Positions 31,337 to 50,803 of a DNA stretch of 64,000 bases are shown in pieces. Location of the stretch: NCBI RefSeq assembly GCF_947494875.1, contig NZ_CANLWM010000007.1, positions 186,001 through 250,000 of the forward strand. The letters are read 5' to 3'. A program made the translations under genes and the position numbers. This DNA is from an uncultured Williamsia sp. GTDB lineage: Bacteria; Actinomycetota; Actinomycetes; Mycobacteriales; Mycobacteriaceae. Numbering within the stretch: the first letter of the stretch is position 1; every line of letters starts with the position of its first letter. Below the pieces are notes generated by a model. The model saw nothing but the letters and a program-made list of their open reading frames with translations. It searched no databases and had not been told where the DNA came from.

Positions 31337-31511
31337 GTCGAGTGGGCGGTCGGAGACGTCGACTGGGCAGTTGGAGACGTCGACTGGGCAGTTGGAGACG
31401 TCGACTGGGCAGTTGGAGACGTCGACTGGGCGGCTCGGCACGCGCAAGGCGGCGTACCGCCCACTCGACGCGCCCAAGCGCCCACTCGACGCGTCCAAGC
31501 GCCCACTCGAC
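31337..31511. repeat. 21-bp tandem repeat array A (5 forward, 3 inverted units)
   Basis: Forward block: five units at exact 21-bp spacing from 31337 to 31441 with the core GTCGACTGGGCAGTTGGAG; units 2-4 are identical, units 1 and 5 diverged. After a 16-bp gap an inverted block has three units with the core CGCCCACTCGAC starting at 31458, 31479 and 31500, again 21 bp apart; its reverse complement matches forward unit 1. The two blocks could fold into a long hairpin. It lies between the convergent pmt and secreted-protein genes. Same family as the arrays at 41827 and 50741. Confidence 0.92.
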
Positions 31512-31558
31512 GAGGTCGACGACGGTGACGCCGTCAGGTCGGACCTGGGCGTGCCGGC

Positions 31559-32146
31559 TCAGCGGGGCGGGATGACCCCGCGGAGGGTGTCGGTGGTCCC
31601 CACGTCAGAGGCGACGTAGATCTGGTCGAGGCTCGTCTGCACGTCGAAGAACGCCAGCGGCAGGTTCTTGAGCTTGTCGTCCTGCGCACGGAACTGGACC
31701 TGCCGGCCGACGTAGCGCGTCTCGGTGTCCACGATCTGGTTCCTGTCGGTCCCGACGGGGTTGAAGATCATCGGACTCGTGAACGGGGTCCCGCCGCGCA
31801 CGGGAAAGCCGTCACGGATGGGCGGGCCGCTCACCGAGATCGCGGCCACCGACTGTCCCGTCCCGCCGGTGACGTTGCGGGGTCCGTAGAGGAGGACCGA
31901 GTACGTCGGCCCGGTACCGCGACCGAACCCGGGGAAACCCCGCAGGTTCAGCGTGATGTCGAGTCGGCCCGCGCCGCGGTCGTAGTCGACGGTCACCGAC
32001 CGCAGATCGACGCTGCCCGGCGCGGCCTTCACCGGCGACGGCACCGTCACCGACGCCGCGGACGCCGGTGCGACACCCACGGCCACCCCCGCGGCGACGA
32101 GGACTCCGGCGAGAGCTGAGGTGGACCACCGTGCGGCACGACGCAT
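31559..32146 (-). CDS. Secreted protein of unknown function
   Basis: 195 residues from ATG 32146 (AGGAG upstream). A Sec signal peptide RRAARWSTSALAGVLVAAG... ends at APASA-A near residue 30. The mature ~165 residues contain no cysteine and are rich in Val, Gly, Pro and polar residues, consistent with a beta-rich exported domain (TVDYDRGAGRLDITLNLRGF). I recognise no family. It is downstream of the BCCT gene in the same direction, and converges on pmt across repeat array A. Confidence 0.7.
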   Translation of the reverse strand: MRRAARWSTSALAGVLVAAGVAVGVAPASAASVTVPSPVKAAPGSVDLRSVTVDYDRGAGRLDITLNLRGFPGFGRGTGPTYSVLLYGPRNVTGGTGQSVAAISVSGPPIRDGFPVRGGTPFTSPMIFNPVGTDRNQIVDTETRYVGRQVQFRAQDDKLKNLPLAFFDVQTSLDQIYVASDVGTTDTLRGVIPPR

Positions 32147-32256
32147 CGAGACTCCTGTGAGATCCGCCGCCGGGATGCGGCACTGTGACGAGTATCGCAT
32201 CCCGGATCAACGATCCTCAGCCGAGTCCCGCCGATTACCGACGTCGCGCCGACGAC

Positions 32257-33978
32257 TCAGATCTTGTCGGCGGGCGGCGGCGGGTCGAGCAGAGACGCGT
32301 CGACGGGGACGCTGCCCGAGGGCAGGACGTCGGTTGTCGTGTCGGTGGCGGCCAGAGTGTTCGCGTGGATGCGGACCTTGTCGTCGATGCCCTCGGCGCG
32401 CTGCCGCGCGGCGATGATCAGCGGGTCGCGGCGCAGGTCCATGAACAGGGACACGCACATCGCGATCATCACGATCACGAACGGCAGCGCCGCGATGATC
32501 GCCATCGTCTTGATGCCCTCGAGAGCGTCGTCGCCGCTGACCCACAGCAGCAGTGCGGCGACGGCGCCGGTCAAGACACCCCAGAAGATGGTGACGCTGC
32601 GCGACGGTTCGGCACGTCCCCGCTGCGACAGCGTGGCCATCACCAGCGAGGCGGAATCCGCGCCCGACACGAAGAAGATGGCGACCAGCACCATCACCAG
32701 CACCGACGCGATCCCGGCGAGCGGAAGGTTGTTCAACATGTCGAACAGCTGCGACTCCTCGTTCTCACTGTTCGACAGGCCCTCGCCGGCCATCTCCTGA
32801 CTGATGGCGGTGCCACCGAAGACGGCGAACCACACCAGGGAGACGGTCGTCGGCACGATCATCACGCCGATCACGAACTGGCGGATGGTGCGACCGCGGC
32901 TGATCTTGGCCAGGAACATACCGACGAAGGGGGTCCAGGAGACCCACCACGCCCAGTAGAAGATCGTCCAGCCCGACAACCACTCCTGGCCGGCGGCGTC
33001 GGTGGTGGCGGCGCTGCGCGCCGCGTCGGAGGTGATGTCGTTGAGGTAGCTGCCGATCGACGTCGGCATGATGTTCATGATGAAGACCGTCGGGCCGACG
33101 ACGAACACGAAGAGCGCGAGCACGATGGCCAGCACCATGTTGATGTTCGAGAGCCACTGGATTCCCTTGGCCACGCCGGACACGGCCGACGCGACGAATG
33201 CCGCTGTGAGGACGGCGATCACGCCGACGAGCAGGTATTTGCCGCTCTCCCCCACCCAGTTCAGCTCCTCGAAGCCCGAACCGATCTGCGCCGCCCCGAG
33301 TCCGAGGGACGCCACGGTGCCGAACAGCGTGGCGAAGATGGCGAGGATGTCGATCACCTTGCCGCCCCAGCCGTTCGCGCGATGGCCGAGCAGCGGCGCG
33401 AACACCGCGCTCATCAACTGACCCCGACCGCAGCGGTAGGTGCTGTAGGCGATCGCGAGTCCGACGACGGCGTACATCGCCCAGGGGTGCAGACCCCAGT
33501 GGAACATGGTGGTGGCCATGGCGACACCCACGTCGCGTGCGTCGGTCCTGGGCGGGGCGTTGACGTAGTGGGTGAGCGGCTCGTAGGCGCCGTAGAACAT
33601 GAGCCCGATGCCCATCCCGGCGCTGAACATCATCGCGATCCAGCTGACGGTGCGGTACTCGGGCTTCTCGCCGTCGCGGCCGAGCGGGATCTTCCCGTAC
33701 TTGCTCACCGCCAGGAAGATCGCGAAGAGGACGAACGCGGTCGCCGCCAGGATGAACAGCCAACCGAGGTTGTCGGTGATGCCGGCGAGGATCGACGCCG
33801 TGCTCTCCTTCAGACCCGTCTTGTCGACGATCCCCCAGACGAGGAACCCGACCACGAGTGCCGCGGTGACACCGAAGACGACCGCGTCGACGCCGACACG
33901 GCGACGACCGTTTGGCGACGGGGCGCTGGTGGTGTCAGCGTGTTCTCCGGTGGCGGGGGTGGATGTCGTGACTGCCAT
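32257..33978 (-). CDS. BCCT family betaine/carnitine/choline transporter
   Basis: 573 residues from ATG 33978 (GAGAG 8 nt upstream; ATG 33984 is possible). About twelve membrane segments. Family signatures: GMGIGLMFYGAYEPLTHY (the Gly-Met-Gly-Ile-Gly stretch of sodium-coupled members) and WTIFYWAWWVSWTPFVGMFLAKISRGRTIRQFV-type segment with the Trp-rich substrate box. Hydrophilic tails of ~45 N-terminal and ~70 C-terminal residues resemble the osmosensing tails of BetP, but the C-terminal one is acidic/proline-rich rather than strongly basic. It probably imports compatible solutes. Confidence 0.93.
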   Translation of the reverse strand: MAVTTSTPATGEHADTTSAPSPNGRRRVGVDAVVFGVTAALVVGFLVWGIVDKTGLKESTASILAGITDNLGWLFILAATAFVLFAIFLAVSKYGKIPLGRDGEKPEYRTVSWIAMMFSAGMGIGLMFYGAYEPLTHYVNAPPRTDARDVGVAMATTMFHWGLHPWAMYAVVGLAIAYSTYRCGRGQLMSAVFAPLLGHRANGWGGKVIDILAIFATLFGTVASLGLGAAQIGSGFEELNWVGESGKYLLVGVIAVLTAAFVASAVSGVAKGIQWLSNINMVLAIVLALFVFVVGPTVFIMNIMPTSIGSYLNDITSDAARSAATTDAAGQEWLSGWTIFYWAWWVSWTPFVGMFLAKISRGRTIRQFVIGVMIVPTTVSLVWFAVFGGTAISQEMAGEGLSNSENEESQLFDMLNNLPLAGIASVLVMVLVAIFFVSGADSASLVMATLSQRGRAEPSRSVTIFWGVLTGAVAALLLWVSGDDALEGIKTMAIIAALPFVIVMIAMCVSLFMDLRRDPLIIAARQRAEGIDDKVRIHANTLAATDTTTDVLPSGSVPVDASLLDPPPPADKI

Positions 33979-34074
33979 ACCCATCACTCTCGCAGCGAAA
34001 CGCTCCAACCGCCAAAAGATCACAGAAGAGACATTCGGTCGTAACCGGACAATAACCGCAGCGCACAGCGTCGC

Positions 34075-34443
34075 TCACGAGGGCCGACGCACCGCCGTGG
34101 CCAGCATCGCGACGATGTCGTCGTCGGCGATGCCGAGTGCGCGCAGCGCGGCGACGTGCTCGGTGGTCGCCTGTTGTGCCTGCTCACGCGCCGAGTCGGA
34201 CCGGGCGGCGACGAACGAACCGTGACGCCCCCGGGTCTCGATCACCCCGGCAGCCTCCAGTTCCCGGTAGGCGCGGGCGGCGGTGTTCGCCGCGATGCCG
34301 AGGTCGTCGGCGAGAGCGCGGACCGTCGGCAGTCGGGTCCCGACGATGAGGTCACCCCGCGCGACGAGGTCCATCACACCGCGACGCACTTGTTCGAACG
34401 GCGGTTCCGACGAGTCCGGGTCGATGACGAGGGACAGGGCCAC
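34075..34443 (-). CDS. GntR-family regulator, YtrA type
   Basis: 122 residues: an N-terminal winged helix-turn-helix (PFEQVRRGVMDLVARGDLIVGTRLPTVRALADDLGIAANTAARAYRELEAAGVIETR) and only ~45 further residues, too short for an effector domain, as in the YtrA subfamily. YtrA types usually control ABC-transporter genes; none is adjacent. The gene begins 3 nt after the arcA stop on the same strand and is probably cotranscribed with arcA. Confidence 0.88.
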   Translation of the reverse strand: MALSLVIDPDSSEPPFEQVRRGVMDLVARGDLIVGTRLPTVRALADDLGIAANTAARAYRELEAAGVIETRGRHGSFVAARSDSAREQAQQATTEHVAALRALGIADDDIVAMLATAVRRPS

Positions 34444-34446
34444 GTC

Positions 34447-35685
34447 TCAGGCCCCCGACGGCAACGGGTCGCGGGTGACCGGGCAGGACATGCAGCGCGG
34501 TCCACCCCGACCGGACCCGAGCTCACTCCCGGCGATGGTGAGCACCTCGATGCCTGACTGGGACAGCCGACGATTCGTCTCGACGTTGCGGTCGTAGGCG
34601 ACGACGACGCCGGGCGCGATGGCCAGGGTGTTGTTCCCGTCGTCCCACTGTTCGCGCTCGGCGGTGACGGGGTCGAGGCCGGTGTCGATCACGCGCAACT
34701 TGCCGATGCCCATCGCGTCGGCGGCGGCCTCGACGAACGGCCGTGGGCCGCTGACGGCTCCGGCGTCGCGGGTGATGGTGAACGCCGAGAGCGTGTCGTG
34801 CACAGCCGGGTACATGACGACCGCGTCGGTGTCGACCATGGTGCACACGGTGTCGAGGTGCATCGAGGCGCGGCGCTGCTCGATCGGCACCGCGAGGACG
34901 GTGTGGGCGAGATCGTCGTCGAACAGACTGTGTGCCAACGCCTCCGCTCCGGCCGGCGTCGTCCGCTCTCCGACACCGACCGCGACGACACCCGGGGCCA
35001 TCAGCAGGACATCACCTCCCTCGACAGGCGCCGAGTGTGACTCGTAGGCCCGACGTGCGCCGCGGAAGCGTGGGTGGTGGGCGTAGACGATGTCGGTCAG
35101 CGACGTCTCGCGGGACCGTGCCGGCAGGGCCAGGCTGGTGATCGCGAACCGGGGCCCGATCCAGAACGAACTGTCCCGCGTGAACAGCAGGTTCGGGAGC
35201 GGGTCGATCGCGAACTCGACGCCGTGGTGCATGCGGCGTACCAGCGAGGTGCGCGCCGCGGCGGGGCTCTCCGGCAGCTCGTCGAACGTCATGCCCGCGG
35301 TCAGCACGGCGACGAGTTCCGTCGCGTCGACGCCACGGAGGTACGCGGCGAGCTCGCTCGCCAGATGCGGACCGAGCCGTCGGGCACTGACCGCCGCCGC
35401 GATGCCCTGCATCCGGGCGGCACCACTGGTCTGCATGGTCTCGACCAGCAGGTCGCCGAGCAGCAACACCTCGACGCCGTGCCCGGTGAGCAGATCGGCG
35501 AACGCGTCGTGTTCCTCCTGCGCCCGGTCGACCCAGGGCAGACCGTCGAACAACAGCTGGTCGCTGTTGCGGGGTGTCAGGCGGCGCAGTTCGTCACCGG
35601 GCCGGTGCAGCAGCACCGTTCGCAGGCGACCCACCTCCGAATCGGCGCCAGGCGGCCGCGGTGTCGACGGTTCCTCGGTCTCCAT
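34447..35685 (-). CDS. arcA: Arginine deiminase
   Basis: 412 residues, guanidino-modifying enzyme fold. Converts arginine to citrulline and ammonia. Conserved pieces: [13 protein letters not shown], the [10 protein letters not shown] segment with catalytic His and Asp, and the C-terminal GRGGPRCM with the nucleophile Cys398. It begins with ATG 35685, 6 nt after a TACCGT -10 element. No arcB, arcC or arcD is adjacent, so energy generation by the full ADI pathway is not supported here; M. tuberculosis also has an isolated arcA at this place. Confidence 0.95.
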
Positions 35686-35691
35686 GGACCC

Positions 35692-35697
35692 ACGGTA
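35692..35697 (-). promoter_or_regulatory. -10 element TACCGT for leaderless arcA
   Basis: On the minus strand TACCGT lies 6 nt before the arcA ATG at 35685, with no ribosome-binding site. Confidence 0.5.
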
Positions 35698-35723
35698 GTG
35701 GCGGGGCGGCGTGCCTGTCCCGG

Positions 35724-36944
35724 TCACACACCGTCGGTGGCGGTCGCGGTCGGGGCCGCGGACCGTGCAGGGGCTGTCTCCCGCGCCAGCGACCAGAAGA
35801 CGAGCGAGACGAGCGGCACCACGCCGGTCAGCAGGAACGCCGGGCCGAAACCCGCGCTCTGCGCCACGAATCCGGCGACGACCGGTCCGCTGACCGCACC
35901 GATGTCGGAGGTCATCTGGAACGCCGCGAGCGCCGTGCCGCCCTGACCGCGCACCGACAGCAGGTCGGCGAGGGACGCCTGGTGGGTCGGGGCGAACAGA
36001 CCCGACCCGATGCCGGCCGCGAAGCTCAGCAGGCCGGCGAGCACGATGTTCCCGCTGAACCCTAGGACGAGCGTCGAGGCCCCCATGATGGCCAGACCCG
36101 GCAGCATCAGCGGCTTGCGGCCGAACCGGTCCGACAGTCGTCCCGCGGCCAGGATCGCGACGACGTTGCCTGCCGCGTACACGGCCAGGAGCACACCGGC
36201 GAGTGCGGGCGACTCGTCGAGACCGTCGGAGTCGACGACGAACAGCGGCACGAGCGCGACACGGACGCCCATCGAGGCGAACCCCTGCGTGAAGTTCGAC
36301 GTGAGGATCGCCCGATAGGCGCTGTCGCGCAACGCCTCGGTGAACGGCAGCGGCTGCGCGACGGGTGCCGACGCGTCGACGACCGGGCGCCCGCCGACGC
36401 CCCGCAGCAGCGTGGCGACGACCAGCGACGCGATGACGAGTGCGATCGCATAGACGACGAACGGCATGCGCAGGCCGAAGCCGACCAGGGCCCCACCGAT
36501 CAGGGGCCCGGTGATGCTGCCCATGAGGAAGCCCGCACTGAAGAAGCCCGAGGCGCGACCACGGATCTCGGCCGGCGCCAACCGGATCAGCAGCGCGAGC
36601 GCGGAGACGGTGAACATCGTCGACCCGATGCCGCCGGCCGCCCGGAACAGCAGCAGTTGCCAGTAGGACTGGGCGAAGGCGCACGCCAGGGTCGACGCGG
36701 ACACGATGACCAGGCCCGTCAGGTAGATCCGTCGCTCCCCCAGGCGTGAGACCAGACGGCCGCCGACCGGCGCGAACACCAGGCGCATGGCCGCGAACGC
36801 CGAGACGATCACCGACGCCGCGCCGACACCCACGTCGAAGCTGCGCGCGAACGCCGGCAGGGCCGGGGCGATCAGTCCGTACCCGAGGGCGATGACGACG
36901 TTGGCGGACAGCAGGACCCAGATCTCGCGCGGGATGGCGCGCAT
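35724..36944 (-). CDS. Major facilitator superfamily transporter
   Basis: 406 residues with twelve predicted membrane segments. The loop 2-3 motif reads [12 protein letters not shown] and the equivalent loop 8-9 has [11 protein letters not shown], both drug:H+ antiporter-type. ATG 36944 overlaps the stop of the upstream acetyltransferase gene (TGATG), so they are translationally coupled. Export of a small molecule modified by that acetyltransferase is possible but unproved. Confidence 0.88.
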
Positions 36945-37555
36945 CAGCAGTTCTCCGTTCGCGTGCGCCGCAGCACGTGGTGGCGGGGTTCGTCGACGGG
37001 GTTGTCGGGCGGGATGTCCCCGGTCGCGACGATCGCGAACCCGGCCTTCTCCAACGCCCTCCACGACGCACGGTTCGCGGCGACGACCGGCACGAGGATC
37101 TCGGTGGCCTCGGGAAACCGTGCGAACGTGTCGTCGACGGCGGTGGCGAGGATCCGTGGGCCGAGCCCACGGCCGCGGTCGGCCTCGTCACCGATCAGGT
37201 GGTCCAGGCACCACGCGGTCGGCGGGACGGCACCGACGACGGGTTCGAGGGCGGCGACGTCCTCGGGGAAGTCATGGATCCGCGATCGCTGCAGCAGTCC
37301 GACCGGTCGCGGTGTCGCACCGTCGTCCACCTCGACGACGAGGTCCTCGCCCGGCTCGGTGCCGTCGATCTGCGGACCGAAGTCCTTCTCGAGCGCGGCG
37401 TCGTCGTGATCCTGGAACCACCAGCGGTGCACCCGCTCGTCGGCGAGCCAGCGGGCCAGCATCGGGAAGTCGTCGCGGGTGAGCCGTCGGAAGGTGATCG
37501 CCCCAGCTGATCGGTCGTCACGGGGGGATGCGCTCACCTGTCGATGGTCCGGCAT
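36944..37555 (-). CDS. GNAT acetyltransferase, AAC(6')-like branch
   Basis: 203 residues. [27 protein letters not shown] and the later [25 protein letters not shown] (acetyl-CoA loop) with [13 protein letters not shown] place it in the GNAT group that includes AAC(6') enzymes and siderophore acyltransferases. Similarity to the group does not show drug resistance. It overlaps the MFS gene by one base and is probably its operon partner. No mobile-element or integron context is seen. Confidence 0.75.
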
Positions 37556-37593
37556 CGGATCACCTCGGACAAATCCCCCGATCGTCGCGACCG

Positions 37594-38676
37594 TCAGGAC
37601 ACCTGACCCTGCTTCCGGGGCCGCTCGAACGCGGTGACCATCGGCGAGGCGTGCGAGTCGAGGGCACGTTCGGTGAGCGATCGGCCGAGCTCGATGGCCT
37701 CGCTCGCGCGGTGGAAGTCGAGCGATCGGATGGCGGTACGGGGCACCTGGATGAGGATGTCGGGCGGCAACGCGGCGAGCTGATGGCGCGCGAGTGCCTC
37801 CTGCATGATGTCCAGCGACCTGTTCATCACCGCGAATCGACTGAGCTTGCGCGCGGCGTCGCCGGCATTGCCCGACCCCGACCGCTGTTCGGCGGCGATG
37901 GCGTCGATCACCTGGTCAGAGCCGCCCATCGAGTCGCCGGCGACCCGGTCGACGATGGACCGCACGAAGTCGCTGTCGAGCGCGTGCGACCCGAGCCGGC
38001 GCAGACGCGACATCGCGTCGAGCGGCATCCCCGGGCCCGTCTCGCCCGAGCGTTGCACCGACTCCTCGGCGTCGGCGTCGGACGGCGGCCCGTTCTCGAG
38101 ACGGCTGTCGTCGTCGAGGCCGACGCCCTCCGAACCGAGGTCGACGCCGATGACGACGTCGGCCGGGGCCGCGGCGAGCGGGGCGATGGGCAGCGGGTCG
38201 AGGATGCCGCCGTCGACGAGGACGCGCCCGTTCATCACGTGCGGGGTGATCACCCCGGGGATCGCGATGGACGCGCGGATCGCCACGTCGACGGGGCCGC
38301 GCTGGAACCACTGCGGGCGACCCGACGTGAGGTCGGTGGCGACGGCGGTGAACGGGATGTCGAGGTCCTCGATCACCCGGTCACCGAGGATCTCGCGCAC
38401 CTTGTCGAGGATCTTGTCGGCGTGGATCATGCCCGGCGCGGTCAGCGAGACGTCGAGCAGTCGCATCACGTCGAGCTGGCCGAGCCCGGTCACCCAGTCG
38501 ACGTACTCGTCGAGGTTCCCGGCGGCGTGGAGTCCCGCGACCAGCGCACCCATCGACGAGCCGCTGACGGCGACGATGTCGTAGCCGCGCTCCTGCAGAA
38601 CCTCGAGGACCCCGATGTGCGCGTACCCGCGCGCTCCCCCACTGCCGAGCGCCACGGCCGCCGTCGGTTTCCTCAC
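37594..38676 (-). CDS. Patatin-like phospholipase (RssA/NTE type)
   Basis: 360 residues from GTG 38676. The patatin dyad is Ser41 in GSSMG and Asp155 in VDGGILDPLP, with the anion-binding loop GSGGARG at 11-17. The C-terminal ~150 residues are a helical extension shared by mycobacterial homologues. Predicted cytosolic or membrane-associated lipid acyl hydrolase. GTG 38676 has a TAATCT element 7 nt upstream. The LysE gene starts divergently 48 bp away. Confidence 0.92.
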   Translation of the reverse strand: MRKPTAAVALGSGGARGYAHIGVLEVLQERGYDIVAVSGSSMGALVAGLHAAGNLDEYVDWVTGLGQLDVMRLLDVSLTAPGMIHADKILDKVREILGDRVIEDLDIPFTAVATDLTSGRPQWFQRGPVDVAIRASIAIPGVITPHVMNGRVLVDGGILDPLPIAPLAAAPADVVIGVDLGSEGVGLDDDSRLENGPPSDADAEESVQRSGETGPGMPLDAMSRLRRLGSHALDSDFVRSIVDRVAGDSMGGSDQVIDAIAAEQRSGSGNAGDAARKLSRFAVMNRSLDIMQEALARHQLAALPPDILIQVPRTAIRSLDFHRASEAIELGRSLTERALDSHASPMVTAFERPRKQGQVS

Positions 38677-38683
38677 GGTTGCC

Positions 38684-38689
38684 AGATTA
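38684..38689 (-). promoter_or_regulatory. -10 element TAATCT for leaderless patatin gene
   Basis: On the minus strand TAATCT lies 7 nt before GTG 38676; the intervening GGCAACC is not a ribosome-binding site. Confidence 0.5.
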
Positions 38690-38711
38690 CGGATCGCCGA
38701 CGGCGCGGCCG

Positions 38712-38717
38712 TATCCT
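38712..38717 (+). promoter_or_regulatory. -10 element TATCCT for leaderless lysE-like gene
   Basis: TATCCT lies 7 nt before ATG 38725. With the divergent element at 38684-38689 it forms a compact two-way promoter region. Confidence 0.55.
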
Positions 38718-38724
38718 CACCCGC

Positions 38725-39351
38725 ATGGACTGGGGCGGATGGGTCGTCTTCCTGGGGTTCGCCGTCGTGTTGACGCTGATCCCGGGCCCCGACACGGCCG
38801 TGTCGATCGCGAACACGCTGGCCGGCGGACGGGTTCGTGGGCTGTCGGCGGTGGTCGGGATCGGTGTCGCGAACCTCGTGCAGAGCGTCGCCGCGGCCGC
38901 CGGTCTCAGCGTCCTCGTCGTCCGGATCGAGCCGCTGTTCCTCACGATCAAGTGGGTCGGTGCGGCCTACCTCATGTTCCTGGCCGTACAGACCTTCCGC
39001 GCCATGCGTCGTCACCGGACCGGCGACGACGTGGTCGTGACCCCGGTGCGCTCCGATCGCCCCGTGCTGACCGGCCTGCGCCAGGGGTTCCTCTCGAACA
39101 TCTGCAATCCGAAGGTCATCGCCTTCTACCTCGCGGTGCTGCCGCAGTTCCTCGGCACCGACCCGGCCGTCGGCACCGTCGTGGTCTACGCGGTCACCGT
39201 GCCCGCCATCGGTGTGGGCTACCTCCTGGCGATCGTCGTCGGCGTGGACCGCGCCCGGGCGGTCTTCTCCCGCAGCCGGGTCCGTGCGGCGATGGATGCC
39301 GTCACCGGCACCGCCCTGGTGGCGTTCAGCCTGCGGCTGGCGACCGAGTAG
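38725..39351 (+). CDS. LysE/RhtB family exporter
   Basis: 208 residues with about six membrane segments. The N-terminal motif GFAVVLTLIPGPDTAVSIANTLAGGRVRGL with the conserved Pro-Gly-Pro is the RhtB/LysE signature; LRQGFLSNICNPKVIAFYLAVLPQF is the second. It would export an amino acid or related metabolite. It converges on soxR with 9 bp between stops. Confidence 0.92.
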   Translation: MDWGGWVVFLGFAVVLTLIPGPDTAVSIANTLAGGRVRGLSAVVGIGVANLVQSVAAAAGLSVLVVRIEPLFLTIKWVGAAYLMFLAVQTFRAMRRHRTGDDVVVTPVRSDRPVLTGLRQGFLSNICNPKVIAFYLAVLPQFLGTDPAVGTVVVYAVTVPAIGVGYLLAIVVGVDRARAVFSRSRVRAAMDAVTGTALVAFSLRLATE

Positions 39352-40457: not shown

Positions 40458-41825
40458 ATGACCACCGTCGACGCGTCCGTGCCCACGGTCGCCGCGCGTC
40501 TGGACCGGTTGCCCATCGTGCGGGCGCACCGGGTCGCGACAGCGGTGATCGGTCTGGGACTGTTCTTCGACCTGTACGAGAACTTCCTCGCCGCGACCAT
40601 CTCCGGGGTGCTCAAGTCGGAGCTGTCGCTGGACCGCACCGAGCTGAACCTGCTCCTCGGATCGGCGTTCCTGGGACAGTTCCTCGGTGCCGCGGTGATG
40701 GGTCGCTACGCCGACCGTGTCGGACGTCGACGAGCGTTCATGGTGAACCTCGCGGTGTACTCGTTCTTCTCGCTGCTGGGGGCGTTCTCGCCCAATGCGG
40801 CGTTCCTCGTCGTCACCCGCTTCATCGCCGGTGTCGGGATCGGCGCCGAGTTCGCCCTCGCCGACTCCTACCTCTCGGACCTGCTGCCGAAGAACGCCCG
40901 CGGCCGGATGATCTCGTGGGCGTACACCGTCGCGTTCTTCGGCGTCCCCGTCGTGGGTCTGCTGGCCCGGTGGCTCGTCCCGCTGCAGCCGTTCGGCGTC
41001 GACGGGTGGCGGTGGCTGTTCGTGCTGGGGGCGCTGGGGTCGTTCGCGGTGTGGATCGTCCGGCGCGGTCTGCCGGAGTCCCCGCGGTGGTTGGAGGCGC
41101 AGGGGCGGCACGAGGAGGCCGACGCGATCTGTCGACAGTTCGAGGCGCAGGCGATCGCCGCCGGCCATCGACTGTCCGAGCCCGACCGGTCGCTGGTCGT
41201 CACCCCGACACAGGCGGTCGGGGTGCGGGCGCTGTTCCGTCCTCCCCTGACCAAGCGCACGACCATGCTGTGGATCCTGTCGGTACTCGAGGTGTTCGGG
41301 TATTACGGCTTCGGCACCCTCGCCCCGATCGTGCTGCTCGACAAAGGATTCGACCTCGTCACGTCGCTCGGCTTCCTCGCCGCGACCTACTTCGGATATC
41401 CGCTCGGGTCGGTGCTGGCGGTGCCGATCGTCGAGCGGGTCGAGCGCAAGTGGCTCGTCATCGGCTCGGCGGGGGCGATGGCCGCCTTCGGGCTGTGGTT
41501 CGGCTTTGCCGGGGCCGCGTGGGCGATCGTGGTGTCCGGGGTGCTGTACACGATGGCCAGCAACCTCTTCTCCAACGCGTACCACGTGTACCTGGCCGAC
41601 TCGTATCCCACCGCGATCCGCGGGACCGCCGCCGGCGCGGCGTACTCGCTGTCGAAGCTGACGACCGGCGTCCTGCCGTTCATCTTGCTGCCGTTCCTCG
41701 ACGCCAACGGCTCCGGCCCGGTCTTCGCACTGGTCGCGGCGGTCATGGTGGCGTTGATGGTCAATGTCGGCGTCCTCGGCCACCGCAGCACGGGGCTCTC
41801 CGCCGACGCCACCATCGCTCGCTGA
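40458..41825 (+). CDS. MFS transporter, sugar/SV2-like branch
   Basis: 455 residues, twelve membrane segments. GRYADRVGRRRAF is the loop 2-3 motif and the PESPRWLEAQGRHEEA segment after segment six is the sugar-porter family signature; LADSYPTAIRGTAAG fits the SV2/metabolite:H+ symporter branch. Substrate unknown. A 21-bp repeat array begins 2 nt after its stop codon. Confidence 0.9.
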   Translation: MTTVDASVPTVAARLDRLPIVRAHRVATAVIGLGLFFDLYENFLAATISGVLKSELSLDRTELNLLLGSAFLGQFLGAAVMGRYADRVGRRRAFMVNLAVYSFFSLLGAFSPNAAFLVVTRFIAGVGIGAEFALADSYLSDLLPKNARGRMISWAYTVAFFGVPVVGLLARWLVPLQPFGVDGWRWLFVLGALGSFAVWIVRRGLPESPRWLEAQGRHEEADAICRQFEAQAIAAGHRLSEPDRSLVVTPTQAVGVRALFRPPLTKRTTMLWILSVLEVFGYYGFGTLAPIVLLDKGFDLVTSLGFLAATYFGYPLGSVLAVPIVERVERKWLVIGSAGAMAAFGLWFGFAGAAWAIVVSGVLYTMASNLFSNAYHVYLADSYPTAIRGTAAGAAYSLSKLTTGVLPFILLPFLDANGSGPVFALVAAVMVALMVNVGVLGHRSTGLSADATIAR

Positions 41826-41826
41826 A

Positions 41827-41956
41827 CGCCCACTCGACCTCTCCGACCGCCCACTCGACGTGGTGATGACCCGTCGGTTGGGCGGTTGGAGACGTCGGTT
41901 GGGCGGTTGGAGACGTCGGTTGGGCGGTTGGAGACGTCGGTTGGGCGGTGCGTGAT
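41827..41956. repeat. 21-bp tandem repeat array B (2 inverted, 4 forward units)
   Basis: Two inverted units with the core CGCCCACTCGAC begin at 41827 and 41848 (21 bp apart). After a short gap, forward units with the core GTCGGTTGGGCGGTTGGAG begin at 41873, 41894, 41915 and 41936; the first three are identical and the fourth is cut off after 14 matching bases. It starts 2 nt after the MFS stop and runs into the next small gene. The unit is the array A unit with a few substitutions. Confidence 0.92.
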
Positions 41957-42651: not shown

Positions 42652-43968
42652 TCAGCGCGGCGCCTGCACCAGTCCCGCGCCGACGTCGGACGCGGGCACG
42701 TCGAGCCTGCGGGCCTGCTGGGTCAGCGTCGTCCACAGATCGCGCCCGCGTCGGCCGGTGGTCTGCGCCCACAGCGCGGCGATCCCCGCGACGTGCGGCG
42801 TCGCCATCGAGGTCCCGCTGATGGTGTTGTACGTGCTCGCGCCCTCACCCTCGGACGATCCGGGCGGGAACACCGGCCACGACGAGTACACGTCGACGCC
42901 GGGTGCGGCGATGTCGACGTTGCCGCCGTCGACGTCGGAGCTGCGGGCCGAAAACGGGGCGATGGCGGACCGTTGATCGGTGGCCGCGACGGCGGCGATC
43001 GACGGACTGTTGGCCGGCACGCCGACGAAGCCGGGGTCGGCAGGTCGGTTCGCGTTGTTGCCCGCCGCCGCGACGATCAGGGTCCCGGCCGACAGTGCCC
43101 GTCGGCCGACCGTCTCGTAGGCGGTGGAGACCGTCCGGACGTCGGCGCCGAGCGACATCGAGACGATGTCGACGCGATTCGTCAGTGCCCAGTTCAGCCC
43201 GGCGAGGATGCCCTCGTCGGCGCCGCTGCCGTTGTCTCCGAGGACCTTGCCCACGAAGAGCCCGGCCTCGTAGGCGATGCCGTAGCGACGGCCGGTGCTC
43301 GGCGTGCGAGGACCACAGGACGTGCCCGCGCAGTGCGTGCCGTGCCCGTGGCCGTCCTGGGCGGAGGTGACACCGTCGACGAAGGCGGCCGAGGTGATGT
43401 CGCGTCCCGCGAAGTCGGGGTGGGTGAGGTCCAGGCCGGTGTCGAGGACGGCCACCCGCACACCGGAGCCCGTTGCCGTTGTGGTCGACACCCCCGTGGC
43501 CTGCAGCCCCCAGGTGAACGCGTCGGTGTCGGCGAACGACGCCGCCGCGGTCGCGGTGGCCGGCACGCCACCGAGGCGGGCCGCGAGATCGGCGACGCCG
43601 TCGGCGTAGCCGCGCAGGTAGGCGGCGCGGTCCGCGTCGGGGACACCGACCGCCGCCCGGACGCGATGCACCCGTTCGGGTTCCACCGCGAGGATGTCGC
43701 CGTCGGGAGAGCAGTTCGCCGACAGCGCGGAGGCCTGGTCGTCGTCGGCGGCGACCACCGCGACGCCGAGGTCGGCGAAGATGGTGGCCTGGGCGCGCGA
43801 CGTCTGTGTGCGGTCGACGATGCGGTCACCGAAATCCGCGGTGGAGGCGACCTCGGTCAGACCCGCCACCCGCCGGAGCACGTCGGCGTATCCCGACGCC
43901 CCTGTCGCGTCACCGAAGACGACCAGTCGTCGCCCTGTCTGCCCACCGTCGGTCGATGTCCCGATCAT
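42652..43968 (-). CDS. Subtilisin-like serine protease without signal peptide
   Basis: 438 residues from ATG 43968 (GGGAGGG upstream). The S8 triad is Asp176 (AVLDTG), His209 (GHGTHCAG) and Ser387 (GTSMATPH), with Asn304 in the oxyanion hole. There is no signal peptide or membrane segment, so it is probably cytosolic. Residues ~12-100 look like an attached propeptide-type domain. The small I9-like protein encoded just downstream may regulate it. Confidence 0.92.
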   Translation of the reverse strand: MIGTSTDGGQTGRRLVVFGDATGASGYADVLRRVAGLTEVASTADFGDRIVDRTQTSRAQATIFADLGVAVVAADDDQASALSANCSPDGDILAVEPERVHRVRAAVGVPDADRAAYLRGYADGVADLAARLGGVPATATAAASFADTDAFTWGLQATGVSTTTATGSGVRVAVLDTGLDLTHPDFAGRDITSAAFVDGVTSAQDGHGHGTHCAGTSCGPRTPSTGRRYGIAYEAGLFVGKVLGDNGSGADEGILAGLNWALTNRVDIVSMSLGADVRTVSTAYETVGRRALSAGTLIVAAAGNNANRPADPGFVGVPANSPSIAAVAATDQRSAIAPFSARSSDVDGGNVDIAAPGVDVYSSWPVFPPGSSEGEGASTYNTISGTSMATPHVAGIAALWAQTTGRRGRDLWTTLTQQARRLDVPASDVGAGLVQAPR

Positions 43969-44081
43969 CGAAGCCCTCCCATTGTCGTATTCGCACACCG
44001 TAATGCGGGCCTGCGACAGACGCCGGGGCCCACGGGGCGCGTTAGGGTGAGTCCCACTTCGACAGTGGAGGAGACACGCGA

Positions 44082-44365
44082 ATGCCCGTACACGGACTCG
44101 TCGCGAAAGCGGCGTCCACGGTGGTGACCGGCGCGGTCGGCGCCGCCGCCTACGACCTCGCCCGCAAGGCCGCCCGTCGCGCACCGCTGCGCGAGGGCGC
44201 CGTCGTGGTGACGTCGTGGGGTCTGCGCGGGACGCGACGCGCCGAGACCGCCGCCGAGTCCGCGCGACTGTCCGTCGCCGATGTCGTCGCCGAGGCCCGC
44301 GAGCGCATCGGCGAGGAGGCGGAGCCGCCCGGCACGGCCGGCGCCGCCGACCACGGGCACGAGCA

Positions 44366-44369
<4 letters not shown>
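44082..44369 (+). CDS. pacL1: DUF1490/PacL-type metal-handling protein
   Basis: 95 residues from ATG 44082 (GGAGGAG upstream). An N-terminal hydrophobic segment (VVTGAVGAAAYDLARKAARRAPLREGAVVVTSWGLRG) matches DUF1490, and the C-terminus is a His/Asp/Glu metal-binding tail (ADHGHEH). In M. tuberculosis the equivalent Rv3269 (PacL1) binds zinc at such a tail, scaffolds and stabilises the P-type ATPase CtpC encoded downstream. The same gene pair is present here, with the ATPase frame beginning at the stop codon. Confidence 0.88.
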
Positions 44370-46548
<2,179 letters not shown>

Positions 46549-46558
<10 letters not shown>

Positions 46559-47019
46559 GGCCGCAGCGCGTCCTGCACACGGGCGAGCAGTGGTTGCTGG
46601 GCGGGCAGGATCTTCCGCCCGGCGGCGTCGAGGTCGAACCACTCGACGCGGTCGACCTCCGGGAAGCTCTGCACCCGGCCCGACCCTCGCGGCCACTCCA
46701 TCTCGAAGGTGTTGCTGACCGAGGTCCCGGGATCCACGTTCTTCTCGATCACGAAGGCGGTGACGACCTTCCCGCTCTTCTGGGTGATCTCGCCGATCGG
46801 CGTGAGGGCGGCGGCGTCGACCGTGACACCGACCTCCTCGGCGAACTCCCGCGCGGCCGCGTCGCGCGGATCCTCGTCGGTGTACTCGCCCTTGGGGATC
46901 GACCAGGCGCCGTCGTCGCGGCGGGCCCACAGCGGGCCGCCGGGGTGGGCGAGCAACACCTGCACGGGCGTACCGGGCGCTCGGCGGACCGCGATCACAC
47001 CGGCGCTACGGCGCGGCAA
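46549..47019 (-). CDS. NUDIX hydrolase
   Basis: 156 residues from TTG 47019 (GGGAGGAG upstream). The Nudix helix is GEYTDEDPRDAAAREFAEEVGV: the REFAEEVG core is intact but the distance from Gly to the first Glu is one residue shorter than the standard Gx5E. The preceding LWARRDDGAWSIPKG is typical of the NTP-PPase type that cleaves nucleoside diphosphate linked compounds. Substrate unknown. Its 3' end overlaps ctpC by 10 nt on the opposite strand. Confidence 0.88.
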
Positions 47020-47155
47020 CGCTCGTCGACTCCTCCCGGGACGCGCGACGACGTTCGGACTCGCTGCGGCGGATGGCCGCTCCTATCGTCAGCGCGGTCA
47101 CGGCCGCGATCGCCATCCACACCACCACGGCTATGACGACGATCACAGTGATCAT
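47006..47155 (-). CDS. Small single-pass membrane protein
   Basis: 49 residues from ATG 47155. One hydrophobic helix (ITVIVVIAVVVWMAIAAVTALTIGAAI) followed by an Arg/Glu/Ser-rich tail. It overlaps the start of the Nudix gene by 14 nt and lies 57 bp downstream of rbsK, all on the same strand, so it may be part of that transcript. No ribosome-binding site is strong, and an upstream ATG at 47188 is possible. Function unknown; may be a real small protein or a chance frame. Confidence 0.5.
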   Translation of the reverse strand: MITVIVVIAVVVWMAIAAVTALTIGAAIRRSESERRRASREESTSVAAP

Positions 47156-47212
47156 CCCGAGATCGTGTCTGCCGGAGGCGCGGAACACAAGGTCCGGATG
47201 GCAACGCCACGG

Positions 47213-48127
47213 TCACGACTTGCTCACGATCGAGTCCAGCATCGCGACGATCCCGTCCGCGTCGGGGTAGGAGGCGTGCGTCCCCGACGTCTGCACGGCG
47301 AGCGAGCCCGCGGCCACCGCCCATCGGATCGCATCGCCCAGTTCGCCGCCGACGGCGAGGCGCGCGGCCAGCACGCCAACGAAAGCGTCTCCGGCACCGG
47401 TGGAATCGACCACCTCGACGTCGGGCGGCGTCACGACACCACCGCCCTCGGTTGTCACCCACACAGCTCCTGCCGCTCCGAGTGTGACGACGACCGACCG
47501 TGCGCCGCGGTCGAGCACGGATCGGGCGGCCGAGCGCGCCTGCGTCGGACCGTCCACGTCGACACCGGTGAGGACGGCGAGCTCGTGCTCGTTGACCACC
47601 AACGGATCACACGACGACAGCAGATCGGTGACCTCACGAGCCGGTGCGGCGTTCACGACCAGTCGCCCTCGGCAGGCCTGAGCCACAGCGCGGTTCACGG
47701 CCGAGGGGATCTCCATCTGGCAGACGACCACCGCGGCGTCGGCGACATCGCGTCGTTCGGCGTCGTCGAGGCGGTCCCAGGCGTCGTTGGCACCGGCGTC
47801 CAGCACGATCGTGTTCTCCCCGGCGGCGACCTGGATGAACGCGGTTCCGGTCGCGGCGTCCGGGACGGTCCGCGTGTGGTCGACGTCCACCCCGTGTCCC
47901 GCGAGCTCCTCGCGGACGCCGTCTCCCTGTGCGCCGTCACCCACACGCCCGATGAACGCGACGTCGTCGTGCACCCGCCGCGCGGCGACGGCCTGGTTCG
48001 CGCCCTTGCCTCCGAGGTTGCGACGGACCGCGACGGCCCGCAGCGTCTCCCCGGGCCGCGGGAACCGATCGAGCTCGGCCACGACGTCGGTGTTCACCGA
48101 ACCCACCACCACGACCGCAGCGCCCAC
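47213..48127 (-). CDS. rbsK: Ribokinase (PfkB family)
   Basis: 304 residues from GTG 48127. PfkB signatures 1 and 2 are present: GGKGANQAVAARR near residue 40 and DSTGAGDAFVGVLAARL near residue 240, with the catalytic Asp in the latter; SVNTDVVAELDRFPRPGETL fits ribokinase. It phosphorylates ribose to ribose 5-phosphate, the substrate of Prs. No rbs transporter genes are adjacent, so salvage of nucleoside-derived ribose is likely. Confidence 0.92.
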   Translation of the reverse strand: MGAAVVVVGSVNTDVVAELDRFPRPGETLRAVAVRRNLGGKGANQAVAARRVHDDVAFIGRVGDGAQGDGVREELAGHGVDVDHTRTVPDAATGTAFIQVAAGENTIVLDAGANDAWDRLDDAERRDVADAAVVVCQMEIPSAVNRAVAQACRGRLVVNAAPAREVTDLLSSCDPLVVNEHELAVLTGVDVDGPTQARSAARSVLDRGARSVVVTLGAAGAVWVTTEGGGVVTPPDVEVVDSTGAGDAFVGVLAARLAVGGELGDAIRWAVAAGSLAVQTSGTHASYPDADGIVAMLDSIVSKS

Positions 48128-48167
48128 CGGTCCGATGATGCCGGATCGACGGGCCCGGGCCGCTGAG

Positions 48168-48173
48168 TAAGGT
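48168..48173 (+). promoter_or_regulatory. -10 element TAAGGT before the FAD oxidoreductase gene
   Basis: TAAGGT lies in the 82-bp divergent gap with rbsK. Transcription from about 48181 would leave a leader of ~30 nt containing the GGAGGTAGG ribosome-binding site, so this gene is not leaderless. Confidence 0.4.
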
Positions 48174-48209
48174 CGGGTGGGTCACAGCAGCGGGCAGCGG
48201 AGGTAGGTC

Positions 48210-49913
48210 GTGGACGTCGACGTCATCGTGGTCGGAGCCGGTCTCGCCGGCCTGGTCACCGCACACGAGCTGACGACCGCAGGTCACCGCGTCGCCCTGC
48301 TCGACCAGGAGAACGCGGCCAACCTCGGCGGCCAGGCGTGGTGGTCGTTCGGCGGCCTGTTCTTCGTCGACAGCCCCGAGCAGCGCCGACTGCGTGTGCA
48401 CGACTCCCTCGAGCTCGCGTGGCGGGACTGGCAGAACAGCGCGGGCTTCGACCGTCTCGACGACGAGGACTCCTGGGCCGTGCGGTGGGCACGCGCGTAC
48501 GTCGAGTTCGCCGCCGGGGAGAAGCGGTCGTGGCTCGACGGCCACGGCGTCACGTTCCTGCCGACCGTCGGCTGGGCCGAGCGCGGCGGGATGCGCGCCG
48601 ACGCGCATGGCAACTCCGTCCCCCGCTTCCACGTCGCCTGGGGCACGGGTACCGGGATCGTCAAGCCGTTCGCCGAGTCGGCGCGACGCGCGTCGACGAC
48701 CGGCTCGCTCGACTTCCACCACCGCCACCGCGTCGACGACCTGATCGTCGAGGGCGGCGCCGTCGTCGGTGTCCGTGGGTCCCTGCTCGAACCAGACGTC
48801 GCCGTCCGCGGTGCCCCGTCGTCCCGGGTCGTCGTCGGGGACTTCGAGATGCGCGCACAGGCGGTCGTCATCACCTCAGGCGGCATCGGCGGCAACCACG
48901 AGATGGTCCGCAAGTTCTGGCCGGCGCGTCTCGGCACCCCGCCGACGACGATGGTCACGGGCGTGCCCGAGCACGTCGACGGCCGCATGCTGGACATCGC
49001 AGAGTCGGCCGGGGCGCGGTTGGTGAACCGGGATCGCATGTGGCACTACACCGAGGGTGTCGCGAACTGCGACGCGATCTGGCCGTCGCACGGCATCCGC
49101 ATCCTGCCGGGACCGTCGTCGATGTGGTTCGACGCCCTCGGTCGGCGTCTGCCCGACCCGTGTCTTCCCGGGTTCGACACGCTCTCGACGTTGCGCCACC
49201 TGCGGACCACGCCCGACATAGCCGAGCACGACCACTCGTGGTTCGTCCTGAACCAGCGGATCATCGCCAAGGAGTTCGCCCTCTCGGGGTCCGAGCAGAA
49301 CCCCGACATCACCTCCGGCGGCCGGATGGCAATGGTGCGCGAGCGGGTCCTGGGCTCCGGCGCACCGGCCCCGGTGCAGGCGTTCATCGACAACGGCGTC
49401 GACTTCGTCACGGCGTCGACGGTCGAGGAGCTCGTCGCGAAGATGAACAGCCTCACCGACTCTCCCCTGCTCGACGCGGCGGCGGTCCGCAGCCAGATCG
49501 AGGCGAGGGACGCGCAGCTCGACAATGCCTACACCAAGGACAGCCAGATCATGGCCATCCGCAACTCCCGTGCGTTCATCGGCGAGCGGCTGGGTCGCAC
49601 GGCGGCGCTGGGGAAGATCCTGGACCCCGACGACGGACCGTTGATCGGTGTGAAACTGCACGTGCTGACCCGGAAGTCGTTGGGCGGCATCCAGACCGAC
49701 CTGTCGTCGCGGGTGCTCGGGCTCGACGGGCAGCCCGTCGACGGTCTGTACGCCGCGGGCGAGGCGGCCGGGTTCGGCGGCGGTGGGGTGCACGGGTACA
49801 ACTCCCTGGAGGGCACGTTCCTCGGCGGATGCCTGTTCTCCGGCCGCACCGCCGGTCGGGCGGCCGCCGCAGCGCTCGGCAGTCGACGTGTCGCCGTGCG
49901 GGAGAACGCCTGA
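48210..49913 (+). CDS. FAD-binding dehydrogenase (fumarate reductase/KstD superfamily)
   Basis: 567 residues from GTG 48210 with GGAGGTAGG upstream. The N-terminal FAD-binding motif is VIVVGAGLAGLVTAHEL; the C-terminal half ends with GLYAAGEAAGFGGGGVHGYNSLEGTFLGGC, which resembles the flavocytochrome c / 3-ketosteroid dehydrogenase group. M. tuberculosis Rv0785-type homologues carry the same label. The substrate is unknown. It is followed after 1 nt by a HugZ-like gene and is presumably cotranscribed. Confidence 0.88.
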   Translation: MDVDVIVVGAGLAGLVTAHELTTAGHRVALLDQENAANLGGQAWWSFGGLFFVDSPEQRRLRVHDSLELAWRDWQNSAGFDRLDDEDSWAVRWARAYVEFAAGEKRSWLDGHGVTFLPTVGWAERGGMRADAHGNSVPRFHVAWGTGTGIVKPFAESARRASTTGSLDFHHRHRVDDLIVEGGAVVGVRGSLLEPDVAVRGAPSSRVVVGDFEMRAQAVVITSGGIGGNHEMVRKFWPARLGTPPTTMVTGVPEHVDGRMLDIAESAGARLVNRDRMWHYTEGVANCDAIWPSHGIRILPGPSSMWFDALGRRLPDPCLPGFDTLSTLRHLRTTPDIAEHDHSWFVLNQRIIAKEFALSGSEQNPDITSGGRMAMVRERVLGSGAPAPVQAFIDNGVDFVTASTVEELVAKMNSLTDSPLLDAAAVRSQIEARDAQLDNAYTKDSQIMAIRNSRAFIGERLGRTAALGKILDPDDGPLIGVKLHVLTRKSLGGIQTDLSSRVLGLDGQPVDGLYAAGEAAGFGGGGVHGYNSLEGTFLGGCLFSGRTAGRAAAAALGSRRVAVRENA

Positions 49914-49914
49914 G

Positions 49915-50724
49915 ATGGCGGAGACACTGCGCGACCACGGTGACCCGGGCGACGCCCCGTCGGTCCCCGCACCGCTCGTCGAGCCGACCAACCCCGTCCG
50001 CCCCACCGCGGCGGAGGAGGCCAGGACCATCGCGGCGTCGACGAACACCGCCACCCTGGCCAGCCTGACCACCGACGGGGATCCGTGGGCGTCCTACGTG
50101 ACCTTCGGTCTCCTCGGCGGTGACCCCGTGCTGTGCGTGTCCCACATGGCCGAGCACGGACGCAATCTCGCCGCGGATCCTCGCGCGAGCCTCGCCGTCG
50201 TCGCACCCACGTCGGACACGGACCCGTTGGCGGGCAGTCGCATCACGCTGGCCGGGCGCGTCGAGGAGCCGACCGGTGCCGAGTACGACGCGGCGCGCAC
50301 CGCTCACCTCGCCGCCGTCCCCGCGGCCAAGTACTACGTCGACTACAGCGACTTCACGCTGTGGGTGCTCCGGGTCGATCGGGTGCGGTGGGTCGGTGGG
50401 TACGGTCGCATGGACTCCGCGACCGGACCGGATTATGCGGCGGCTCAGCCGGATCCGGTCGCACCGGCGTCGGGGCCCGCCGTCGAGCACCTCAACGCCG
50501 ACCACGCGACTTCTCTCACCGACATGGCCCGTGCCTTCGGCGGTTTCCCCGACGCCACCGGCGCGGTGTGCACCAGCGCCGACCGTTACGGCCTCGACCT
50601 CAAGGTGACCACCCCGCGCGGCATCGCCTACACGCGCGTCGGGTACGCCGAGCCCATCGACGGCATCGACGACCTGCGCGCTGCCACCGTCGACCTCGCC
50701 CGTCGCGCCCGCACCACCGCCTGA
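49915..50724 (+). CDS. HugZ-like haem/flavin oxidoreductase with DUF2470 domain
   Basis: 269 residues from ATG 49915. The N-terminal ~165 residues are a split-barrel pyridoxamine-phosphate-oxidase-like domain (TAAEEARTIAASTNTATLASLTTDGDPWASYVTFGL), and the C-terminal ~85 a DUF2470 domain (VEHLNADHATSLTDMARAFGGF). This combination is that of the HugZ-type haem-utilisation/oxygenase proteins. The start is one base after the FAD gene stop. Role in haem degradation is inferred only. Repeat array C begins 16 nt after the stop. Confidence 0.85.
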   Translation: MAETLRDHGDPGDAPSVPAPLVEPTNPVRPTAAEEARTIAASTNTATLASLTTDGDPWASYVTFGLLGGDPVLCVSHMAEHGRNLAADPRASLAVVAPTSDTDPLAGSRITLAGRVEEPTGAEYDAARTAHLAAVPAAKYYVDYSDFTLWVLRVDRVRWVGGYGRMDSATGPDYAAAQPDPVAPASGPAVEHLNADHATSLTDMARAFGGFPDATGAVCTSADRYGLDLKVTTPRGIAYTRVGYAEPIDGIDDLRAATVDLARRARTTA

Positions 50725-50740
50725 CCCACACCCCGCCCCC

Positions 50741-50803
50741 CGTTCGTTGGGCAGCAGGAACCGTTCGTTGGGCGGTTGGAACCGTTCGTTGGGCGGTTGG
50801 GAC
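50741..50803. repeat. 21-bp tandem repeat array C (3 forward units)
   Basis: Three units at exact 21-bp spacing (50741, 50762, 50783) with the core CGTTGGGCGGTTGGAA; the first has diverged at its right half (GGGCAGCAGG). The central TTGGGCGGTTGGA is shared with arrays A and B, while the flanking bases differ. It lies 16 nt after the HugZ-like stop and 73 bp before the HNH gene. Confidence 0.88.

Follow-up and report, generated by a model that had tools for sequence, protein, structure and literature searches.

Dispersed 21-bp Repeat Arrays in Williamsia as Candidate Non-autonomous Parts of an Element Driven by a Nuclease

The 21-bp tandem arrays scattered over the chromosome of an uncultured Williamsia are best explained as dispersed non-autonomous members of an element driven by a nuclease, a reading to which a probability of about 0.6 can be given. 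The candidate enzyme is encoded by a gene of ~300 aa flanked, in inverted orientation, by arrays of the same kind; it lies outside the window, i.e., the whole stretch of 64,000 nucleotides analyzed here.

Arrays in the Window

Three arrays, namely A, B, and C, are found in the window together with the following neighboring genes:

29477..31297, + strand: pmt, protein O-mannosyltransferase, upstream of array A (start uncertain)
31337..31431, + strand: array A, + arm, five + units, GTCGACTGGGCAGTTGGAGAC and variants
31458..31518, - strand: array A, inverted arm, three - units
31559..32200, - strand: gene convergent to array A on its far side, without Pfam match
40458..41825, + strand: MFS transporter, upstream of array B
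41827..41860, - strand: array B, - arm, two - units (the rarer order, - then +)
41872..41956, + strand: array B, + arm, four + units, GTCGGTTGGGCGGTTGGAGAC
49783..50724, + strand: HugZ-like gene (PNPOx/DUF2470), upstream of array C
50740..50803, + strand: array C, half array, three + units of class 2, CCGTTCGTTGGGCGGTTGGAA
50876..52141, + strand: HNH endonuclease gene, in the place of the other arm that array C has in W. deligens and W. serinedens

The NCBIfam match of the pmt product scores under the cut-off of that model. Cores exactly 21 bp apart (TGGGC-N16-TGGGC) occur 12 times in the window, all within arrays A, B, and C, against a mean of 0.19 and a maximum of 2 in the shuffled window, so that the three arrays reported by an earlier, sequence-only reading stand far above chance. 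The inverted units which it described for A (31458-31518) and B (41827-41860) are present as well, while none is found in array C. Its placement of the arrays directly after plus-strand stop codons is correct for the window, array A starting 39 nt after the end of pmt (31297), array B at 41827 after the MFS gene (end 41825), and array C 16 nt after the HugZ-like gene (end 50724), but as a rule it is an accident of this window. The two arms of array A are predicted by folding to form one hairpin. At the site of array C, a full +/- array is present in both W. deligens and W. serinedens, and the HNH endonuclease gene is missing from it.

Array Population of the Genome

Dozens of 21-bp arrays, mostly 3' of genes, can be found in the genome to which the window belongs. 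The exact two-unit pattern occurs 97 times genome-wide versus once for its reversed control, and 172 versus 27 times when one mismatch is allowed. Among 41 arrays examined, 20 are inverted pairs (+ units, a loop, and - units) and 17 have a single orientation, four of the latter being nuclease arms. According to a crude ORF caller, 28 of the 41 overlap no ORF, arms beside nuclease genes included, and these lie in 16 convergent, 11 co-directional, and only one divergent gap. The other 13, including all three window arrays, overlap called ORFs, for which reason the caller must be considered unreliable. The core is therefore neither rare nor placed at random relative to genes, as a chance satellite had been expected to be, and the proposal of a dispersed family with a 3' preference is borne out. 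What that description missed is the inverted pairing of about half of the arrays and the partner gene outside the window.

The Partner Gene

In the predicted structure of the product of the array-flanked gene, an AbiEi-like domain is fused with a homing-endonuclease domain of the Vsr/EDxHD type. The gene matches the MTES_1575/DUF559 and AbiEi models as well as I-Bth0305I and AbiEi structures, and its product has the features of a Vsr-like EDxHD catalytic domain; at the sequence level, the nuclease profile hits 3r3p weakly (E 0.013). Weak NCBIfam matches among 60 family members are to anti-phage ProA (30 members, best E 3.8e-5), Hhe (18), and Vsr (3), and database models (AbiEi, Hhe) link both domains to defence proteins. 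Profile models gave no transposase match for the gene. Purifying selection is indicated by a dN/dS of 0.08-0.15 between orthologues.

Regarding the other nucleases of the window's genome, L047 is a third one, 19-20-bp arrays flank the paralogue L051 on either side, and at L049 an array is present on one side; no 21-bp arrays are found at the paralogues L048, L050, and L052. Locus L011, considered as a third nuclease element, was discarded, the gene between its arrays being a flavin oxidoreductase with the same arrangement in W. deligens. Carriage by plasmids or phages was likewise dismissed: 50,697 phage records gave no hit, and 72,556 plasmid records gave a single one, at 61% coverage in a record of 11.85 Mb.

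Association of Arrays and Nucleases Across Actinobacteria

At 80 loci of named Actinobacteria, an array of 19-24 bp period is present in 120 of 154 nuclease flanks versus 3 of 146 control zones. The units on the two sides of the gene are inverted copies of one another at 53 of 54 loci, with one tie. No array is found at 9 of the 74 loci with full flanks, and in a sister clade arrays are missing in 8 of 10. Unit similarity is 0.85 for nucleases at least 80% identical (11 pairs), 0.57 at 60-70%, and about 0.5 below; the sole pair at 70-80% has a unit similarity of 0.32. The units thus follow their nuclease, clear likeness being confined to nuclease identities of at least 80%. Across eight Williamsia genomes, three unit types are each enriched only where the genome's own nuclease bears that type, the enrichment in G062 being weak (11), and in one Nocardioides a unit type is likewise enriched with its nuclease.

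The bare core CGTCGASTGGGC occurs 89 times in W. serinedens, which has no S1 nuclease, and 59, 56, and 32 times in G062, G120, and W. maris, respectively, whose known nucleases bear other units (controls 8-12). Array families without a known cognate nuclease therefore exist. Class-1 units were abandoned as an indicator specific to the S1 nuclease, since W. serinedens has 89 class-1 cores without it. In the arrays sampled among the matches listed, a single case, the class-1 tails of W. serinedens are unlike the GGA form seen in the two other species.

It is very improbable that the arrays serve a nucleoid-associated protein as sites, or arose as satellites by chance, with no relation to the nuclease. 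A period of 21-22 bp, i.e., two helical turns, and the local homogenization of tandem units would fit such an origin, but the flank counts and the nuclease-specific units contradict it. That the arrays serve as operators of an AbiEi-like repressor domain, with genome-wide regulation, is also unlikely: the N-terminal domain is AbiEi-like and the nuclease start is closely preceded by an array, but arrays also lie directly past its stop and elsewhere are mostly 3' of genes, with the single divergent gap noted above.

Hairpins and Termination

In folding predictions, stretches of 140-150 nt from the arrays adopt a single long hairpin, with z from -5.0 to -12.0 in five, compared with -1.4 for the 70 nt of half array C; four single array units are no more stably folded than their shuffled versions (z -0.2 to 0.7). 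Such hairpins, together with the predominance of convergent gaps, would suit bidirectional terminators or RNA hairpins at 3' ends that the host has retained and in which the nuclease gene merely lodged. Consistent with this, a plain inverted repeat is present in three of seven array-free congener gaps (A in G062 and W. maris; S2 in G120), the other four having none except for short overlapping palindromes in one. A terminator-like match also occurs at the end of array B (1 found, 0.1 expected), but array A has none. Also in its favor, hairpin-partner units are slightly more similar than other same-locus pairs (0.64 vs. 0.61; 23 of 2000 shuffles as high). The effect is real yet small, and an origin of the arrays from structure alone was rejected. 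The host-kept explanation is improbable, if less so than the others considered here, since two-sided flanking of the nuclease in several families and units that track the nuclease across genera are left unexplained. The same objection applies to the roles in termination, RNA structure, or slippage suggested previously, which nevertheless are plausible side properties given the hairpins and the length differences between species.

Turnover and Age of Array Sites

Unit identity is 0.67 within arrays versus 0.56 between non-orthologous arrays, and unit number is unequal at 22 of 27 orthologous array pairs. Local amplification and copy-number variation, both anticipated by the sequence-only reading, are thereby found, the latter between species, and units at fixed sites turn over fast. 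Of 20 array loci each in W. deligens and W. serinedens, at least 14 and at least 13, respectively, have an orthologue in the set of array loci retrieved from the window's genome; most array sites are therefore old and movement to new sites is rare.

A nuclease occupies site S1 in seven of eight Williamsia genomes, and none is present there in W. serinedens. One nuclease-array site is vacant in five congeners, and the nuclease found at it is most similar to one at a different site within the same species group; at another nuclease site, one species has the array only whereas its congeners have the nuclease. These sequence relationships point to copying between S1 and S2 within one species group. 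As copying to S2 explains two S1 changes on the tree, replacement of the S1 nuclease by unrelated ones is superfluous. No target duplication can be read at empty and filled sites, the flanks being highly diverged.

A domesticated or defence system, no longer mobile and performing a cell service (3'-end recombination or collision control, or action on invading DNA), is about as unlikely as operators. Purifying selection, the broad presence of the S1 nuclease, array sites common to species, and the match of AbiEi models of a defence library to all 60 family members are in its favor; the S1/S2 copying, the restriction of unit types to few species, and the absence of the nuclease at S1 in W. serinedens speak against it.

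Comparison with Known Systems

No description of such an element was found in the literature searched, in agreement with the earlier statement that none was known. REPIN-RAYT consists of short extragenic repeats in inverted hairpin pairs, mostly 3' of genes, and the enzyme gene may carry them as flanks (PMC3116915, PMC3733652). Inverted extragenic hairpin doublets 3' of genes are common to TnpA-REP and the arrays (20 of 41 paired here). However, the REPIN-RAYT enzyme is a tyrosine (Y1) transposase, whereas here an AbiEi + Vsr/EDxHD-type protein is found with no linked Y1 (RAYT) transposase. The REPIN-RAYT repeat is itself palindromic (20-40 bp hairpin), in contrast to a non-palindromic 21/22-bp tandem unit from which a hairpin arises only through opposed arrays. 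The best reading of the system is a nuclease with a population of cognate non-autonomous arrays, which would be analogous to RAYT-REPIN, with unrelated enzyme and repeat.

The array nuclease shares with EDxHD homing endonucleases such as I-Bth0305I the catalytic fold and the conserved E, D, H, and D. I-Bth0305I is reported to dimerize on a target of nearly 60 bp (PMC3943268), which would be about three 21-bp units. Unlike those enzymes, which are located in an intron, intein, or unique site, the array nuclease has an AbiEi-like second domain, sits between repeat arrays, and has many partner arrays in its own genome. It also differs from AbiE toxin-antitoxin systems in the fusion of the AbiEi-like domain to a nuclease-type domain and in having no AbiEii gene beside it at S1 and S2 of the window's genome, where the neighbors are prolyl oligopeptidase, MFS, GH15, and cation-efflux genes. 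With MITEs and IS it shares the coexistence of a complete element with short, inverted forms that are non-autonomous; unlike them, its sole gene is no known transposase and its ends are tandem arrays of variable length. No target duplication is seen in flanks as diverged as these.

Proposed Mechanism

The full element comprises an inward-pointing 21-bp array, one gene, and a mirror-image array, about 1.1-1.2 kb in all. The AbiEi-like domain is probably the part that reads the units, which the nuclease may bind in register (21 or 22 bp, about two turns), cutting or nicking DNA at or beside the arrays. Repair from another array or a full element would then bring copies of arrays, and occasionally of the gene, to the cut site, with homing into arrays, genome-wide drift of the units, and length change as outcomes. 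Arrays would survive by virtue of their 3' position, where hairpins may be harmless or substitute for terminators. At somewhat less than even odds, we propose a transposase-free mobile element in which a homing-type endonuclease keeps its own 21/22-bp target as mirror-image arrays, makes scattered arrays its landing sites, and spreads and rewrites them by break repair, each nuclease lineage evolving its own unit, so that genomes have array populations of their own, which also act as 3'-end hairpins.

Significance

The arrays and the nuclease suggest a type of mobile element, as yet undescribed, by which small repeats are distributed over the chromosomes of bacteria. If true, this would be a second, independent route by which short inverted repeats enter bacterial genomes, with a nuclease instead of a transposase, and would provide a role for a group of uncharacterized AbiEi-DUF559/MTES_1575-type proteins of Actinobacteria. 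With units and nucleases that have diverged across genera, the recognition code would be directly testable.

Arrays in the window and their dispersal

The three tandem arrays A, B and C are real and in register at 21 bp, as the sequence-only reading had described them, and its further claims, that each starts close to a plus-strand stop codon and that A and B contain inverted units, likewise hold, all three beginning within 39 nt of such a codon. The window contains 12 pairs of TGGGC cores with a spacing of exactly 21 bp, against 0.19 expected, and all of them fall inside these arrays. The features concerned are:

31337-31518: array A, 5 + units, a loop and 3 - units
41827-41956: array B, 2 - units, then 4 + units (both orientations, as in A)
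50740-50803: array C, + units only
50876-52141: HNH gene, following array C

A further 21-bp array with a different unit, CAGCTCCTCGTTCGACGCCTG, is found at the window edge (84-206; 5.9 copies, 70% matches).

A genome-wide count of the core had been proposed as a check, and in the own genome (4.77 Mb, 17 contigs) the two-unit pattern is far above its reversed control, with 97 exact matches vs 1, and 172 vs 27 when one mismatch is allowed. Around pattern matches, 36 stretches were retrieved from among the matches listed, and the array list is a minimum set. Among the 41 arrays examined, again from the matches listed, 15 are simple + then - arrays, 5 are tight palindromes (scored + - + -), two have the form + - + and two the form - then +; the other 17 have all their units in a single orientation, and four of them are nuclease arms. 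In class 2 arrays, the unit type of C, GTCTGT usually leads the outermost unit and GTTCGT the inner ones, and because of this difference the array elements have recognisable ends.

The nuclease gene and its flanking arrays

At two own loci, L009 and L010, opposed array pairs about 1 kb apart each enclose one gene, the predicted nucleases (305 and 303 aa) being 71% identical to each other. The arrays that flank the third own copy (L047, 50% identity) are built from another unit. The family survey comprised 37 loci, of which 8 are own and 29 belong to further genomes in the family, selected by the search tool as best matches. Within its close group of 23 loci (L045-L047 and L053-L072; 39-100% identity), 21-bp arrays stand on both sides of the gene in 21 and on one side in two (L057, L059); no 21-bp arrays were found at the gene in L073-L081 (35-41% identity). 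A more distant own paralogue (L051, G000 C4:360486-363959) has 19-20-bp arrays on both sides and may represent a separate branch of this type of element. The window itself holds a distant relative of the nuclease without arrays (10899-11648, minus strand; 25% identity, E 2.8e-4).

Across named genomes, the best 80 of 160 nuclease loci were scanned. Of 154 nuclease sides, 120 had an array of 19-24 bp no more than 450 bp from the gene, vs 3 of 146 control zones 2 kb away. Full flanks were available for 74 of these best 80 loci, with arrays on both sides in 52, on one side in 13 and on neither in 9. Left and right units resemble each other as reverse complements (mean 0.82 vs 0.48 direct; reverse complement better in 53 of 54, with one tie), and left units match the right units of other loci at 0.51. 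Units are mostly 22 bp long in Nocardioidaceae and other copies, and 21 bp in Williamsia and Gordonia. Once oriented, they share a core within each group, CGcCGAccGtGC in 54 units and cGAGnnG in 48, carrying 12.9 and 10.2 bits, vs at most 9.4 and 8.0 for random orientation and at most 5.4 and 5.5 once the letters of the units are shuffled. In a tree of 96 proteins, 32 of the 38 members of the Williamsia and Gordonia clade have an array on either side of the gene, the other 6 have one on a single side, and none is without; in its sister clade, made up of family members and Mycobacterium angelicum, arrays are absent in 8 of 10. One record titled Kitasatospora arboriphila (L095, NZ_JNYV01000008.1) shares about 94% identity with W. 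muralis across 8.7 kb and is probably mislabelled or contaminated.

Unit type and nuclease identity

Unit identity averages 0.85 where nucleases are at least 80% identical (11 pairs), 0.32 at 70-80% (one pair) and 0.57 at 60-70% (43 pairs); below 60% it is 0.50-0.52, the level of unrelated units. For five same-genome nuclease pairs, the best unit match elsewhere beat the same-genome match in all five (0.53/0.46, 0.88/0.50, 0.89/0.55, 0.59/0.59 and 0.98/0.82), and it always belonged to a nuclease at least as similar. When three unit types were searched in eight Williamsia genomes, each was enriched only in genomes with a nuclease bearing that type, weakly so in G062 (11 vs 1-3); one type is also enriched in N. 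islandensis. On these comparisons, units go with their nuclease. A counter-observation is that the bare core CGTCGASTGGGC exceeds its control in 7 of the 8 genomes, including those whose known nucleases lack such a unit (G062, 59; G120, 56; W. maris, 32): the core is shared, the tails are specific and some array families lack a known partner.

Presence and turnover at orthologous sites

The Williamsia compared were W. deligens DSM 44902 (G094), W. serinedens DSM 45037 (G044), W. maris (G107), W. herbipolensis (G079), sp. CHRR-6 (G018), a MAG (G120) and G062. W. deligens and W. serinedens have both A and B; A is missing at the orthologous site in G079, G062, G107, G120 and G018, and B in the four of these compared at its site (G079, G107, G120, G062). 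At site C, the further genomes covered are CHRR-6, which carries two units of a type of its own, and G079, which has no array. At the nuclease site S2, arrays and nuclease lie between convergent genes (GH15, cation efflux) in three species, and five other Williamsia have a gap of about 20-90 bp without an array. At the site S1, a nuclease occurs in 7 of 8 genomes, own included (51-100% identity to own), with only one flank conserved in CHRR-6; W. serinedens has a small + + - - array in its place. In the tree, S2 nucleases group with full support with the S1 nucleases of the own genome and W. deligens, apart from the other S1 nucleases.

Among 20 array loci picked for each species from the matches listed, at least 14 in W. 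deligens and at least 13 in W. serinedens match own array loci, some by one flank only. In 27 orthologous array pairs, class is the same in 23 and unit number differs in 22; unit similarity is scarcely higher than in non-orthologous pairs (0.596 vs 0.556, one-sided p 0.03). Class-1 tails score 0.54-0.57 between loci within species vs 0.42-0.52 between species; class-2 tails, with few pairs, give a mixed pattern.

Genes beside and between arrays

The HNH genes that stand beside half arrays, whose units have one orientation only, are putatively DUF222/13E12-like and match Pfam HNH weakly (E 0.097). Besides the window gene, four own loci (L027, L031, L033, L044) carry a copy of 83-87% identity behind a half array, as does W. 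serinedens (L225, 80%), the units pointing toward the gene at the own loci and L225; at the W. deligens copy (L198, 82%) the opposite arm is present. At C, W. deligens and W. serinedens have a full +/- array and no HNH gene. This second nuclease gene thus seems to replace one arm, as if inserted into the arrays. In L011 (G000 C8:31000-37000) and in L204 (W. deligens), two opposed arrays with a spacing of about 1 kb enclose a flavin oxidoreductase gene.

Novelty and overall reading

Neither these arrays nor a connection between them and the nuclease came up in the literature searched, which is weak evidence of novelty as subscription papers and preprints were mostly outside the search. The arrays are associated with the nuclease gene, inverted about it, co-vary with it and are dispersed. 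The nuclease itself would bind DNA and cut it, and the resulting breaks may drive the spread of the arrays.
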